The notes beneath the pieces are model-generated. The model was not told where the DNA came from, ran no database searches, and worked only from the letters and a program-made list of their open reading frames with translations. A stretch of DNA of 64,000 nt. It comes from Saprospiraceae bacterium (GTDB lineage Bacteria > Bacteroidota > Bacteroidia > Chitinophagales > Saprospiraceae). This document shows, one piece after another, positions 4,509 to 17,753 of the stretch. The translations under genes were made by a program, and so were the position numbers. Where the stretch lies: NCBI GenBank assembly GCA_020627705.1, contig JAHDGJ010000011.1, forward strand, positions 62,001-126,000. The letters are read 5' to 3'. Numbering within the stretch: the first letter of the stretch is position 1; each line of letters opens with the position of its first letter.

Positions 4509-5213
4509 ATGACAAACGAATTATCTAATTTAAAACAGTGGACGCAAATTAAAGGGGAGAATTCTTGGACTATGTTTAAGGTTCTTGCAGAATTTGTAGA
4601 TGGGTTTGAAACATTAAATAAAATTGGTCCATGTATCTCAATATTTGGATCTGCGCGAACCAATCCAGATCATAAGTATTACAAATTGGCTGTAGCTACA
4701 GCTGAGCGCCTTTCTAAAGAGGGTTTTGGTATCATAACAGGTGGAGGACCCGGAATTATGGAAGCAGCCAATAAAGGTGCGCATAATGCTAAATCTCCTT
4801 CAGTGGGATTAAATATAGATTTGCCTTTTGAGCAATCTCATAACCCTTACATAGATCCAGATAAAAATTTAAATTATAGATATTTCTTTATTCGAAAAGT
4901 AATGTTTGTAAAATACGCACAAGCCTTTGTGACGCTTCCTGGTGGATTTGGAACCTTCGATGAGTTGTTTGAGGTGTTGACTTTAATACAAACTAAGAAA
5001 ATCTCAAAAGTTCCAGTAATCCTAGTGGGATCAGAATTTTGGACTGGACTAAAAGAATGGATAAAGGATGTCATGTTGGATCAACATCAAAACATTAGCC
5101 CGAAGGATATGGACTTGATTCCAATTGTGGATACACCGGAAGAAGTGGTAGAAATAATCAATGCCTTCTACTCTAAAGATGAAAACAACTTAAAACCAAA
5201 TTATGAGTTGTAG
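4509..5213 (+). CDS. LOG family protein (TIGR00730 type)
   Basis: A 234-residue cytosolic protein with the diagnostic nucleotide-binding motifs of the LOG/lysine-decarboxylase-like family: GGGPGIMEAANKGA (78-91) and PGGFGTFDE (144-152). Family members are nucleoside 5'-monophosphate phosphoribohydrolases that release the free base (cytokinin activation in plants, nucleotide salvage in bacteria). The N-terminal extension (about 40 residues, SWTMFKVLAEFVDGFE) is typical of the longer bacterial subgroup. It follows the response regulator by 37 bases and is closed by a strong hairpin at 5245. Confidence 0.88.
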   Translation: MTNELSNLKQWTQIKGENSWTMFKVLAEFVDGFETLNKIGPCISIFGSARTNPDHKYYKLAVATAERLSKEGFGIITGGGPGIMEAANKGAHNAKSPSVGLNIDLPFEQSHNPYIDPDKNLNYRYFFIRKVMFVKYAQAFVTLPGGFGTFDELFEVLTLIQTKKISKVPVILVGSEFWTGLKEWIKDVMLDQHQNISPKDMDLIPIVDTPEEVVEIINAFYSKDENNLKPNYEL

Positions 5214-5244
5214 TTTGACTTGTTGGTTTTTTAAATAAAATTCT

Positions 5245-5281
5245 AAAAGAGCCTTTGATTTTTCAAAGGCTCTTTTTTTTG
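5245..5281 (+). terminator. Rho-independent terminator after LOG gene
   Basis: A perfect 14-bp stem (5245-5258 paired with 5263-5276) with a TTTT loop, followed by a run of T to 5281. It sits between convergent genes, 31 bases after the LOG stop. The T-run favours the plus strand; the A-run on the other side gives weaker termination for the minus strand. Confidence 0.9.
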
Positions 5282-5328
5282 TTTCAGTTTTGAGTAATAG
5301 TTATGAAAGTGGATCGACGTAAGCTGTG

Positions 5329-5814
5329 TTAGACAAGTTCGGAACCTTCAACTTTGATATCATATTCTTTTAGACCACGCAAGACCTTGAAGTATTCGTT
5401 GACTGCGCTAAGCCCCACAATGACGAAGTATGCGATGATTCCTCTCCATAAAATTCCTTTAATGGCCGAAAGGGGGTCGCCAATAAACATGAGAATTTGC
5501 ATTAGTGATAATAATATCAGGACTATAATGAAACCAATTTTTGGCTTTTTAATAGCCACAATTCCTGCTGCAACATATATCCCAACAACTACAGCGTTGA
5601 TGGCGACAATCCAAAATTCAAAATTGTATTGAACGCTCTCTACAATCATTCCCAGAACTTGTAGTCCTACAAGCCACCAGATGGCTTTTCGCCCATTAGT
5701 AACCTTTGGGTGTAATTCGCTATAACTGCGTTTTAGTCTTATGATCTCTTTGGCACTTTGAGCATTTTGTTCTCTTGGCAGCCGAATGTCATCGTCTAAA
5801 ATATAGTCTTTCAT
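5329..5814 (-). CDS. Hypothetical four-helix membrane protein
   Basis: A 161-residue protein that I do not recognise. A charged cytoplasmic-type N-terminus (about 45 residues, RLPREQNAQSAKEIIRLKR) is followed by four hydrophobic segments starting at WWLVGLQVLGM, FWIVAINAVVVG, IGFIIVLILL and IIAYFVIVGL, and a charged tail. It lies four bases downstream of another small membrane-protein gene, so the two are probably one transcript. No catalytic motif is visible. Confidence 0.65.
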   Translation of the reverse strand: MKDYILDDDIRLPREQNAQSAKEIIRLKRSYSELHPKVTNGRKAIWWLVGLQVLGMIVESVQYNFEFWIVAINAVVVGIYVAAGIVAIKKPKIGFIIVLILLSLMQILMFIGDPLSAIKGILWRGIIAYFVIVGLSAVNEYFKVLRGLKEYDIKVEGSELV

Positions 5815-14343: not shown

Positions 14344-16329
14344 TCAATTGAAATATTGCTGCAAATTTGCATCAACTGGGTAACCTAGTTGTGACGCTCT
14401 TGTATAATCCTGTCTAGCTTGGACTTTATTGCCTAAGGCTATATTGACTTTACATCGCTCATTAAAGTAGACCCCTTTGTTGCCATATTTGATGGCATTA
14501 TTTAAATCTTGCAAAGCTTGATTTTCATTTTTCAACTGTCTATGGCAACGAGCTCTTTCATACCACAAGTCAGCATTCGTCGGCTTTAGATTTAAATAAC
14601 TAGTAATATCCGATAGGGCATTTGGTATGTCACCAGTCATGTTATACATCAAAGATCTGTTGAGGTAAGCCACAGCGTGATCAGGTTTCAACTCAATGGA
14701 TTTGTTTAAATCTCTAAGTGCGAAATCTATGTTGTTCATTTTTGCATGTATAGCCCCTCGATTAGACCAATATTCACCATCACTTGGATCAAGTTGAATC
14801 GCTTTGTTATAATCGGCAAGCGCACGATTCCAATCGTTGGGATCTGTTGAATTAAAGTATAATCTGCCTCTTGAATTATATGGTGCTGGATCGGTTTGAT
14901 CCAATTGCAATCTTGTATTGTAATCAGCCAATGCTTTGTCAGTCATGCCATTGTCTCTATAGTAATTTGCTCTATTGCCGAAAGGCAAGGTCGTGTCCTT
15001 GTAATATTTTATCACATGGGTCCAAAGCGTCCCTGAGTTTTTCCAAACCTTATTTTGATTAAAACTCAAAACCGAATAAGCGATAACAGCGATGGTTGCA
15101 ACACTGTAACATGCTATTCTATACTTAGAATGTTGGATGCCTTTTTGGAAATAATAGGCAAGAATGAAGAAAATTCCTGCATATGCGATATAGGTGAAAC
15201 GATCCGCTAAGAACCCCTGACCGGCACCTAAAATTTGAAGCATGAAAAAAATGTTGAATGTAAAAAAGCCAAGCCCAAAAACAATGGATTTGTAGCCTTT
15301 GAGATGTGCTCTCCAAGCAGCAAAAAGCGCCAAAGGGAAAATCAATATCGTAGGATAAAACCATGCTGGAATTGCCGCAGGATAAGGGTAGAGAGGAGAA
15401 AGTCTATAAGGAATAATGGACTTAATTAAGTACACGAGATATGAGTAAGAGCCAATAAAAAATCGCTGCCATTGTGCAAATGTGCTGTTGCTTTCTAAAG
15501 AGCCATAAGTATTGAGCACATAAACTCCCAGGACACCGAAAAACAAAGATAGTAGCCAAAACACCCATTTGTTTAAAATATCCTTGAAGGAGATTTTTTC
15601 TTTGAGATAATAATCTACTGCGAGCATTGAAAGCGGGAGGGTAACGGCTTGAATTTTTGACAATAAGGCGAGTATAGCTAAGATTACGATGGCTATCGTG
15701 TAATTTTTCTTTAAGTTTAAGGATTTAATGTATAGAAGCAAGGCGCTCAAATAGAATACGCCGTACAACACATCTTTTCTTTCTGTCACCCAGGCCACTG
15801 ATTCCACCCGCATGGGCTGTACGGCAAACAATGCAGCAAAAAACAATGAGGCTTGCCAATTTAATTTAAGACCAATGCCGATAAAATAAATCAATAACAC
15901 ACACAGAATATGTAAAATAACATTGTTTAAATGCCATGCTCCTGGGTTATCCAATCCAAAGATTTTATACTCAACAAGGAAAGTCCATGTAGTCAGGGGA
16001 TTGTAATTGCCAATAACATTGTTTTCAAATTTGAAAATTTCTTTGGTGTTGCTCCAAAAATCATTTGCATTGGCCACAAAGTCATTTTCATAAAAGTTTT
16101 TATCGTCATCCCAATTTACAAATTGATTGTCCGTCGTATTGAAGTATACACTAAAGGTCAAGCCTATTAAAAGTAGTATGGGAACTATCCAAGTCTTGGA
16201 AGTTTTCTCCTTTCTGTTGGGTTTATCTTTTCTTTTGGTTCCTTTTTCACTTTTATTTTGGCGTGAATGGTCATGAGCTGCTTTCTGTTCGAGAATCTTC
16301 TCTTTTCTAGTCTTCTTGCGTTGAGACAT
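14344..16329 (-). CDS. TMTC-like multispanning membrane protein with C-terminal TPRs
   Basis: 661 residues. A very basic 45-residue cytoplasmic N-terminus is followed by about ten or more membrane segments. An early extracytoplasmic loop carries NWDDDKNFYEND (72-83), the acidic signature of GT-C glycosyltransferases. From about residue 420 to the end are TPR repeats with the usual W/Y-N-R-G pattern (YNSRGRLYFNS, YWSNRGAIHAKM). This is the layout of the TMTC/O-mannosyltransferase-like TPR proteins, so a role in protein O-glycosylation is possible; enzymatic activity is inferred. Operon-like spacing to recN. Confidence 0.75.
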   Translation of the reverse strand: MSQRKKTRKEKILEQKAAHDHSRQNKSEKGTKRKDKPNRKEKTSKTWIVPILLLIGLTFSVYFNTTDNQFVNWDDDKNFYENDFVANANDFWSNTKEIFKFENNVIGNYNPLTTWTFLVEYKIFGLDNPGAWHLNNVILHILCVLLIYFIGIGLKLNWQASLFFAALFAVQPMRVESVAWVTERKDVLYGVFYLSALLLYIKSLNLKKNYTIAIVILAILALLSKIQAVTLPLSMLAVDYYLKEKISFKDILNKWVFWLLSLFFGVLGVYVLNTYGSLESNSTFAQWQRFFIGSYSYLVYLIKSIIPYRLSPLYPYPAAIPAWFYPTILIFPLALFAAWRAHLKGYKSIVFGLGFFTFNIFFMLQILGAGQGFLADRFTYIAYAGIFFILAYYFQKGIQHSKYRIACYSVATIAVIAYSVLSFNQNKVWKNSGTLWTHVIKYYKDTTLPFGNRANYYRDNGMTDKALADYNTRLQLDQTDPAPYNSRGRLYFNSTDPNDWNRALADYNKAIQLDPSDGEYWSNRGAIHAKMNNIDFALRDLNKSIELKPDHAVAYLNRSLMYNMTGDIPNALSDITSYLNLKPTNADLWYERARCHRQLKNENQALQDLNNAIKYGNKGVYFNERCKVNIALGNKVQARQDYTRASQLGYPVDANLQQYFN

Positions 16330-16519: not shown

Positions 16520-17116
16520 CTATACCCCAAAACAGTCTTCCAAGGCGCCAACTTTCATCAGTAGGATAAAACATCGGGAAGCTGCAATTACATCTGCACG
16601 GGCATTGCCACTAGGCGAATATCCTTTTTTAAAACATATACTGTGAAGCTCTTTGAGTGACGGCCACTTATAGCCTCGACCTCCTTTACCAGGAAGCTTG
16701 CAAAAGAATGTACTTTCTTGCATCAAGCAATAACTTGCAGCGTTGTGTAAATGATGTCTTATTCCAGTTCGGATAAATTCGGCGCCAACTATATTTTCGT
16801 TTAGGTTCAAATTATGCGCCCAAACAAAATCGGTTTCTTCAAGCGAGCTTTTGAATGCTTCTAGAATGTCTTCTAATTTTTCTCCCTTGGTCGCAATGTC
16901 TTCTTCGTCAATATGACAACTTTTGATTTTGTCCGGAGCAAATGTGTAGCCTTCCGGTTTAACAATAAAATCAAAGTCTTTTATTGGTTTAAGTTCTTCA
17001 TTGAGTATAATCCATGATAGATGAACCAATCGTGGCCAAACAAAGGTATCTGTTACTGGAGCCTTAAATGTTTTTGCCCTACCAGCAGCGGAGGCGTCAA
17101 AAATCAAATGTTTCAT
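16520..17116 (-). CDS. DEDDh exonuclease-fold protein with lost catalytic residues
   Basis: 198 residues with the scaffold of bacterial DnaQ-like 3'-5' exonucleases: KAPVTDTFVWPRLVHLSW, FIVKPEGYTF, VGAEFIRTGI, FFCKLPG, YKWPSLKELH. The active-site positions are changed. Motif I (normally FDTETTG) reads FDASAAG, losing the Glu; motif II (normally NxxFDxxIVGAEF) reads NLNLNENIVGAEF, losing the Asp; motif III (normally HNAxxD) reads GNARAD, losing the His. Three of five DEDDh residues are gone while the fold signature is kept, so it is probably a non-catalytic binding protein. It overlaps the upstream gene by four bases, suggesting coupled translation. Confidence 0.8.
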   Translation of the reverse strand: MKHLIFDASAAGRAKTFKAPVTDTFVWPRLVHLSWIILNEELKPIKDFDFIVKPEGYTFAPDKIKSCHIDEEDIATKGEKLEDILEAFKSSLEETDFVWAHNLNLNENIVGAEFIRTGIRHHLHNAASYCLMQESTFFCKLPGKGGRGYKWPSLKELHSICFKKGYSPSGNARADVIAASRCFILLMKVGALEDCFGV

Positions 17117-17643
17117 AAATCATGATTCTTTTTAAGTTGTTCAGCAAAGCCGAGAAAAGTATTCTGCACCAAATGGTATTTTTTATGCCCATCGGGGAGT
17201 GCATATATCAGATGGTAACGAAATACTCGATCAATATAGCAATACGCTTGATCAATTTTTAACTCTTTCATTAATTGTCTTTCTACATTGCTGCACTGCA
17301 TAGTAGTTTGATCATTGTAGTGGGATAATTTTTTTCTTGTTTTCAGGTCGGAGGTATTACAAATGAATCCAAAAGTCGTACTTCCCACCGTAGGGATTTC
17401 ATTGTATTTCCACATTTCGGGCGAAACTTTACTTGCTGATCTTTCTAAGAGTGCTGCTAGGACCCAATGATCTGATGATTTTGGAAACCCAATATTTAGT
17501 AATGAATCTATTCCAGCTACTATTTCTCCATTTTGCAGGCTTTGTATTATATCACTTTTCGCAATCAAATTTTCACCCAAGACAGATTGAATTCGATTAA
17601 GTTGGGTTTGATTGATGCCGTTTATAGAATATCCAATATTCAT
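17113..17643 (-). CDS. Unknown protein; possible degenerate hydroxymethylbilane-synthase-like fragment
   Basis: 176 residues, with no confident family. By eye it follows the spacing of HemC (hydroxymethylbilane synthase) domains 1-2: GENLIAKSDIIQSLQNG then DSLLNI aligns with the G-LF-KELE-ALL then HSMKDV segment; VLAALLERS with LVTICERED; PTVGSTTF with IVGTSSLRR; CSNVERQLMKEL with RGNVGTRLSKL. The substrate-binding arginines and lysine/aspartate of HemC are absent, as is the cofactor-binding third domain. If the relation holds it is a second pseudoenzyme translated together with the exonuclease-like protein. The ORF is real by length and coupling; the HemC relation is tentative. Confidence 0.55.
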   Translation of the reverse strand: MNIGYSINGINQTQLNRIQSVLGENLIAKSDIIQSLQNGEIVAGIDSLLNIGFPKSSDHWVLAALLERSASKVSPEMWKYNEIPTVGSTTFGFICNTSDLKTRKKLSHYNDQTTMQCSNVERQLMKELKIDQAYCYIDRVFRYHLIYALPDGHKKYHLVQNTFLGFAEQLKKNHDL

Positions 17644-17753
17644 TTCGCAAAATTTATAAAATTGTCACAAAACAAGTTACTTCTTTTCTAAAGATGCGAG
17701 ACAAAGGTTTTGTTCGTTTTGACATTAATAATCCTTAATTTGAGTTACGGAGT

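Follow-up and report, generated by a model that had tools for sequence, protein, structure and literature searches.

The gene at positions 16520–17116 (minus strand) of the window, a 64,000-nucleotide stretch of a Saprospiraceae genome (contig JAHDGJ010000011.1), encodes a protein that has the predicted fold of DEDDh exonucleases but lacks the motif I Glu, the motif II Asp, and the motif III His of their catalytic site; we refer to it as pseudo-DnaQ. The larger point, which goes beyond the first-pass annotation of this gene, is that the putatively coupled upstream gene itself encodes a dead HemC (hydroxymethylbilane synthase), and that genomes lacking heme synthesis still keep the pair. Pseudoenzymes as such are known; the new element is the linked pair of dead enzymes, which points to a function that has nothing to do with what either enzyme catalyzed. 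In the open-access literature that we searched, we found no description of a HemC/pseudo-DnaQ dead pair and no paper on Saprospiraceae together with hemC, heme biosynthesis, or pseudoenzymes.

The pseudo-DnaQ frame is open, starts with ATG, and encodes 198 amino acids. Aligned with 18 homologs from related genomes, the protein has D7, S9, N106, G170, and D175 at the five sites where active-type homologs have D, E, D, H, and D. Ser replaces the motif I Glu at codon 9 (17090–17092), Asn replaces the motif II Asp at codon 106 (16799–16801), and Gly replaces the motif III His at codon 170 (16607–16609); the motif I Asp of codon 7 (17096–17098) and the motif III Asp of codon 175 (16592–16594; all on the minus strand) are retained. 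The first-pass annotation had named exactly these three replacements, and the alignment bears them out. The active homologs (35–38 per cent identity) align without gaps at the motifs, and we found no other alignment that would place D, E, D, D, and H. The protein therefore does not carry the four acidic residues and motif III His of an active DEDDh exonuclease. Judged from these residues, it has probably lost its activity, and its chemistry may be altered.

An AlphaFold2 model of pseudo-DnaQ, built from 72 alignment rows, has a pLDDT of 96.6 and a pTM of 0.91. Its best match in the PDB is the S. thermophilus DnaQ domain 8h18 (E 1.0e-8; Z 20.6; rmsd 2.3 over 170 residues), followed by a PolC-type polymerase, epsilon, DinG, ExoI, RNase T, and TREX. 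The model thus predicts the DnaQ/RNase H-like fold that pseudo-DnaQ has in common with DnaQ/DEDDh exonucleases such as the S. thermophilus DnaQ domain, Escherichia coli epsilon (2gui), RNase T, ExoI, and TREX, and the structural matches to DnaQ-type nucleases confirm the fold assigned from the letters alone. Pseudo-DnaQ differs from the solved members of this group, to which it is 11–18 per cent identical, by the missing Glu, second Asp, and His. Sequence searches are much less telling: Pfam returned only a weak RNase_T match below the cut-off (E 0.038), a PDB search with the single protein returned no match, and a PDB search with a profile returned only weak matches, the best being 8h18 at 0.0018. 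The protein matches PHROG 192, 'DNA polymerase exonuclease subunit' (E 9.5e-10). Viral contigs searched with patterns of the protein gave no match.

We collected 209 homologous loci, the named records among them being from Saprospiraceae or broader Bacteroidetes, and these loci collapse to 125 distinct proteins: 94 with the pseudo form, 26 with an intact DEDHD set, and 5 with a partial set at the five sites. The most common pseudo sets are DSNND (43 of 94) and DSNGD (27). Because a non-catalytic set is present in 94 of the 125 distinct proteins, loss of the motif is not a chance event. The homologs of pseudo-DnaQ within its own family include active-type proteins with the DEDHD set. Within the sampled data, the pseudo clade is seen only in Saprospiraceae, and the 14 homologs that we read in other families of the order all have the DEDHD set. 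The collected loci include those of the cultured Portibacter marinus, P. lacus, Membranihabitans marinus, and M. maritimus.

In a tree reconstructed without the catalytic columns, the 94 pseudo rows require two changes, the second of which is a single sequence (L200) that is the lone pseudo row within the intact clade, beside partly degraded relatives. In a tree from which the switched columns were also removed, L200 was excluded, and 20 rows were added, the 95 pseudo rows form one side of a single branch (SH-aLRT 95). The outgroup rows of that tree are not one side of any branch, so that it does not fix the root, and we assume loss rather than gain of the DEDDh set because regaining three catalytic residues is implausible. 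Comparing homologs with and without the DEDDh set on a tree, as the first-pass annotation had proposed, yields a single origin of the pseudo form, and with loss assumed the phylogeny shows the DEDDh site as lost once, early in Saprospiraceae. A second, separate, partial erosion of the set is observed in the intact clade, with site sets NKDND (L200), DEDND (L172), DECHD (L162), DENND (L166), DEDED (L181), and DEDYD (L140).

We compared residues between 93 pseudo and 26 intact rows, with L200 and the 5 partial rows dropped. The metal-ligand Asp residues are kept in the pseudo rows (D7 in 89/93, D175 in 91/93). Among the catalytic positions, Glu9 of the intact rows is switched to Ser (77/93) or Thr (12/93) and Asp106 to Asn (82/93); elsewhere, Gln32 is switched to His (89/93), Ala34 to Ser (82/93), and Thr131 to Leu (85/93). 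Glu134 and Thr136 are invariant, each in 93/93 pseudo rows, and the pseudo rows gain an acidic tail near LEDxFD. Position 9 varies among Ser, Thr, and Ala, and position 170 between Asn and Gly.

The three pseudo pairs with the lowest dS have NG86 dN/dS of ~0.07 (L145–L175), ~0.05 (L106–L107), and ~0.01 (L090–L091), and the remaining pairs have dN of 0.05–0.29 with high or saturated dS; wherever dS is estimable, the ratio is below 0.1, in a set of close pairs picked by hand, with dS saturated in most. Pseudo-DnaQ of the window shares 84 and 80 per cent identity with its counterparts in two congeners. The frame is open in 19 of the 19 first homologs; some homolog matches are listed with one internal stop, and in the rows that we read, the profile match often extends beyond the stop codon. 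These comparisons show that strong purifying selection acts on pseudo-DnaQ and that a different set of residues is now conserved, which amounts to new constraint and not relaxation. The first-pass proposal of a selected pseudoenzyme rather than decay is upheld by the one origin, the open frames, the low dN against high or saturated dS, the invariant new residues, and the high-confidence fold, and we see no relaxed selection. Decay of the DnaQ gene is refuted by dN/dS, the invariant residues, and the single old origin.

The pseudo-DnaQ gene overlaps the upstream open reading frame (17113–17643, minus strand) by a 4-nt stop/start overlap (17113–17116, minus strand). Of the earlier description of the frame as intact and translation-coupled, the first part stands, and the second is plausible from the overlap. 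The upstream frame encodes 176 amino acids that match no Pfam family and match hemC only marginally (E 0.057); its score of 12.4 bits (11.1 in a genome search) falls below the NCBIfam hemC cut-off of 164 bits. Its AlphaFold2 model has a pLDDT of 92.9, and the top 32 PDB matches of the model in Foldseek are all porphobilinogen deaminase/HMBS (5ov5, E 6.7e-10). The predicted structure is that of HemC (PDB 5ov5, 4mlq, 1pda) with domain 2 missing, and the alignment places the catalytic Asp, the Arg pair, and the cofactor Cys among its losses. Homologs of this frame occupy the same position in two congeners and in a further genome (G020), and most other Saprospiraceae loci that we read have a full hemC there.

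Across the family, HemC is located upstream of pseudo-DnaQ in 84 of 94 loci (58 live, 26 dead), within 70 bp in 80 of the 84. The next detected downstream gene is hemD in 51 of the 58 live-HemC rows and in none of the 26 dead-HemC rows. This gene order shows that pseudo-DnaQ belongs to a predicted hemC–exonuclease–hemD operon. In 10 of the 94 rows, no HemC is seen near pseudo-DnaQ, a count whose meaning is limited by contig ends; in about eight loci (L120, L122, L128, L129, L133, L134, L190, and L205), HemC is absent or unrecognizable, as a hemC profile search around them gave no match at E 1. Because some pseudo loci are without HemC, the DnaQ-like protein can stand alone and does not always need HemC; of the two partners, it is the constant one. 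Among the listed open frames, whose lengths we looked over for a HemC–DnaQ fusion, the longest is 269 amino acids. In alphaproteobacteria, a gene for a nucleic-acid-binding EVE-domain protein is found near hemCD according to excerpts of PMC7641849; such neighbors do occur.

The gene pair is separated from a divergent lpxD by a gap (17644–17753) that may be a shared promoter region; lpxD is divergent upstream in 68 of the 94 pseudo loci, and some of the others end at a contig edge. Directly downstream of the pair lies a gene for a TPR-repeat protein of 661 amino acids (14344–16329, minus strand), which is conserved behind the pair in many loci: a gene for a TPR membrane protein comes immediately next in 12 of the 26 rows with dead HemC and in 3 of 10 rows without HemC. 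We considered and rejected a link to this protein, since it is also found behind hemD in live operons and looks like plain neighborhood.

We labeled HemC rows as live or dead from scores and motifs, using motif names, domain borders, and catalytic-residue roles that we take to be those of HemC enzymes, with the borders placed from motifs. Unlike HemC enzymes, the dead rows lack the Arg pair and the cofactor Cys (26 of 26 rows), and 22 of 26 also lack the catalytic Asp; the window copy additionally lacks domain 2. An AU test on a pseudo-DnaQ tree of 81 of the 84 rows (L200, L127, and L092 dropped) rejects dead HemC as one clade (P = 0.0005). The minimum number of HemC state changes is 6, 7, or 5, depending on the rows in the tree, but the starred branches alone force only 2. 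By these trees, dead HemC arose more than once. One further sequence, labeled live, has its cofactor Cys changed to Tyr and its catalytic Asp to Glu with hemD still downstream (L073, locus positions 4517–5419), and from its residues it looks like a fresh case that is dying now.

Live HemC has mean pairwise identities of 0.57, 0.54, and 0.44 in domains 1, 2, and 3, respectively. In dead HemC (25 of the 26 rows, L062 left out), domain 3 (0.32–0.49) is better conserved than domain 1 (0.21–0.43) in all six clades and better than domain 2 (0.21–0.30) in the five clades that could be scored. On these identities, the least conserved domain of live HemC became the better-kept part of dead HemC. Dead HemC evolves fast (27–66 per cent identity within clades), and its frames are open; in neutral simulations to the observed distance (half path, 6 pairs), frames stayed stop-free in at most 0.005 of runs. 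Two dead copies (L106 and L118) exceed the Pfam Porphobil_deam cut-off of 22.1 bits, with 29.7 and 37.8 bits. As dead HemC can pass such cut-offs, automated annotation of pathways may assign a heme-synthesis step to heme-less genomes.

The genome of the window (98.7 per cent complete) gave no match to hemB and has no canonical hemC, no hemE, and no hemH. Among 284 genomes of the family Saprospiraceae, each at least 90 per cent complete, hemB is absent from 26 of 69 genomes with pseudo-DnaQ and from 72 of the remaining 215 (Fisher P = 0.56). The pseudo form was called by score in 62 genomes (E at most 2.5e-70) and by reading in 7; of the 87 hits, 13 proved intact or partial on reading, and the 5 unread ones were counted as not pseudo. 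As far as gene content tells, this shows presence of pseudo-DnaQ to be independent of heme synthesis. Three genomes of the genus Portibacter (G105, G194, and G250) and one other (G149) have a canonical hemC at another site, which shares its contig with hemE and hemH. These second copies (L274–L277) are 37–39 per cent identical to the operon type and form a separate branch, and the natural reading is that the ancestral pathway was lost and then, apparently, re-acquired. Portibacter and G149 keep the dead HemC/pseudo-DnaQ pair despite the second hemC.

We consider it about an even chance that pseudo-DnaQ is a selected, non-cutting binding protein of DnaQ fold whose role is independent of heme and whose partner is HemC domain 3. 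The DEDDh site was lost once, early in Saprospiraceae, and the new residue set was then held; later, in several lineages, hemC lost its catalytic residues and stayed beside pseudo-DnaQ. On the binding-protein account, the old cleft, with its two metal-ligand Asp residues kept, would likely still hold a ligand without cutting it, for which the 3′ end of a nucleic acid, a nucleotide, and a peptide tail are candidates; for nucleic-acid binding, the two Asp residues are only a hint. Contact with HemC domain 3 is suggested by gene order and by the reversal of constraint, although conserved gene order alone can reflect inheritance. If domain 3 is the partner, HemC in Saprospiraceae has a second, non-catalytic job, which would outlast the loss of heme synthesis and keep dead HemC as a scaffold. 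Downstream, the pair might act as a regulatory complex, which is a guess.

The published pattern closest to that of dead HemC, judging from excerpts of PMC8097288, is that of the fungal pseudonucleases Ssd1/Dis3L2, in which a second function came first and catalysis was then lost repeatedly; they belong to another fold family, and the repeatedly silenced enzyme is a nuclease there and HemC here. The same excerpts describe Exuperantia, EXD1, Maelstrom, and SMG5 as animal pseudonucleases, which resemble pseudo-DnaQ at the level of the fold, in that a nuclease fold has lost its catalytic residues. Unlike them, pseudo-DnaQ is bacterial, and its gene belongs to a heme operon, where it forms a pair with the gene of another dead enzyme.

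The main rival is an altered enzyme, because Maelstrom, described in part of PMC7968707 as an endoribonuclease without the DEDD motif, indicates that loss of this motif need not end all chemistry. Pseudo-DnaQ would then still be an enzyme, with a new site assembled from D7, D175, S9, H32, and E134, as proposed for Maelstrom. The near-invariant new polar residues H32, E134, and T136, together with the two retained Asp residues and the strong constraint, fit such a switch, and these Asp residues, together with the new His and Glu, might sustain a different chemistry. We nonetheless regard it as unlikely, as the known chemistry is gone without the Glu, the second Asp, and the general-base His, and the variation at positions 9 (Ser/Thr/Ala) and 170 (Asn/Gly) is unusual for catalytic residues.

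Somewhat more doubtful still is a role confined to heme synthesis, as a regulator or chaperone, for example in HemC cofactor loading or HemC–HemD handover; the protein would now be disappearing from heme-less lineages. The hemC–pseudo-DnaQ–hemD order, with hemD next in most live-HemC rows, fits such a role; this reading is already weakened by the 26 of 69 carrier genomes that keep pseudo-DnaQ without hemB, and more than one lineage retains dead HemC with its frames open, as Portibacter retains the pair alongside the second hem cluster. We give hardly any credence to plain decay, in which exonuclease and HemC genes were recently broken and are not yet lost: fast evolution of dead HemC, a window copy without domain 2, and 10 of 94 rows with no HemC in reach could be taken as its marks, but the origin of the dead DnaQ is single and old, its dN/dS is low and its residues invariant, and HemC is stop-free where neutral simulation predicts stops.

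Tentatively, and short of an even chance, we extend the binding-protein reading to HemC itself: HemC of Saprospiraceae may be bifunctional, serving in hydroxymethylbilane synthesis and, through domain 3, as partner of a non-cutting DnaQ-fold protein. A complex with a heme-independent role would preserve dead HemC in several lineages, even after loss of the heme pathway and, in Portibacter, its apparent re-acquisition, and two unrelated enzymes would have become one two-part pseudoenzyme system. With pseudo-DnaQ, the known pseudonucleases gain a bacterial example that is linked to an operon. For the Saprospiraceae, the pair is a natural separation-of-function experiment, in which HemC catalysis was apparently removed more than once and the gene kept by the same partner, and a hidden second function of this textbook enzyme would be testable in cultured species, in Portibacter and, for the live-HemC form, in Membranihabitans.
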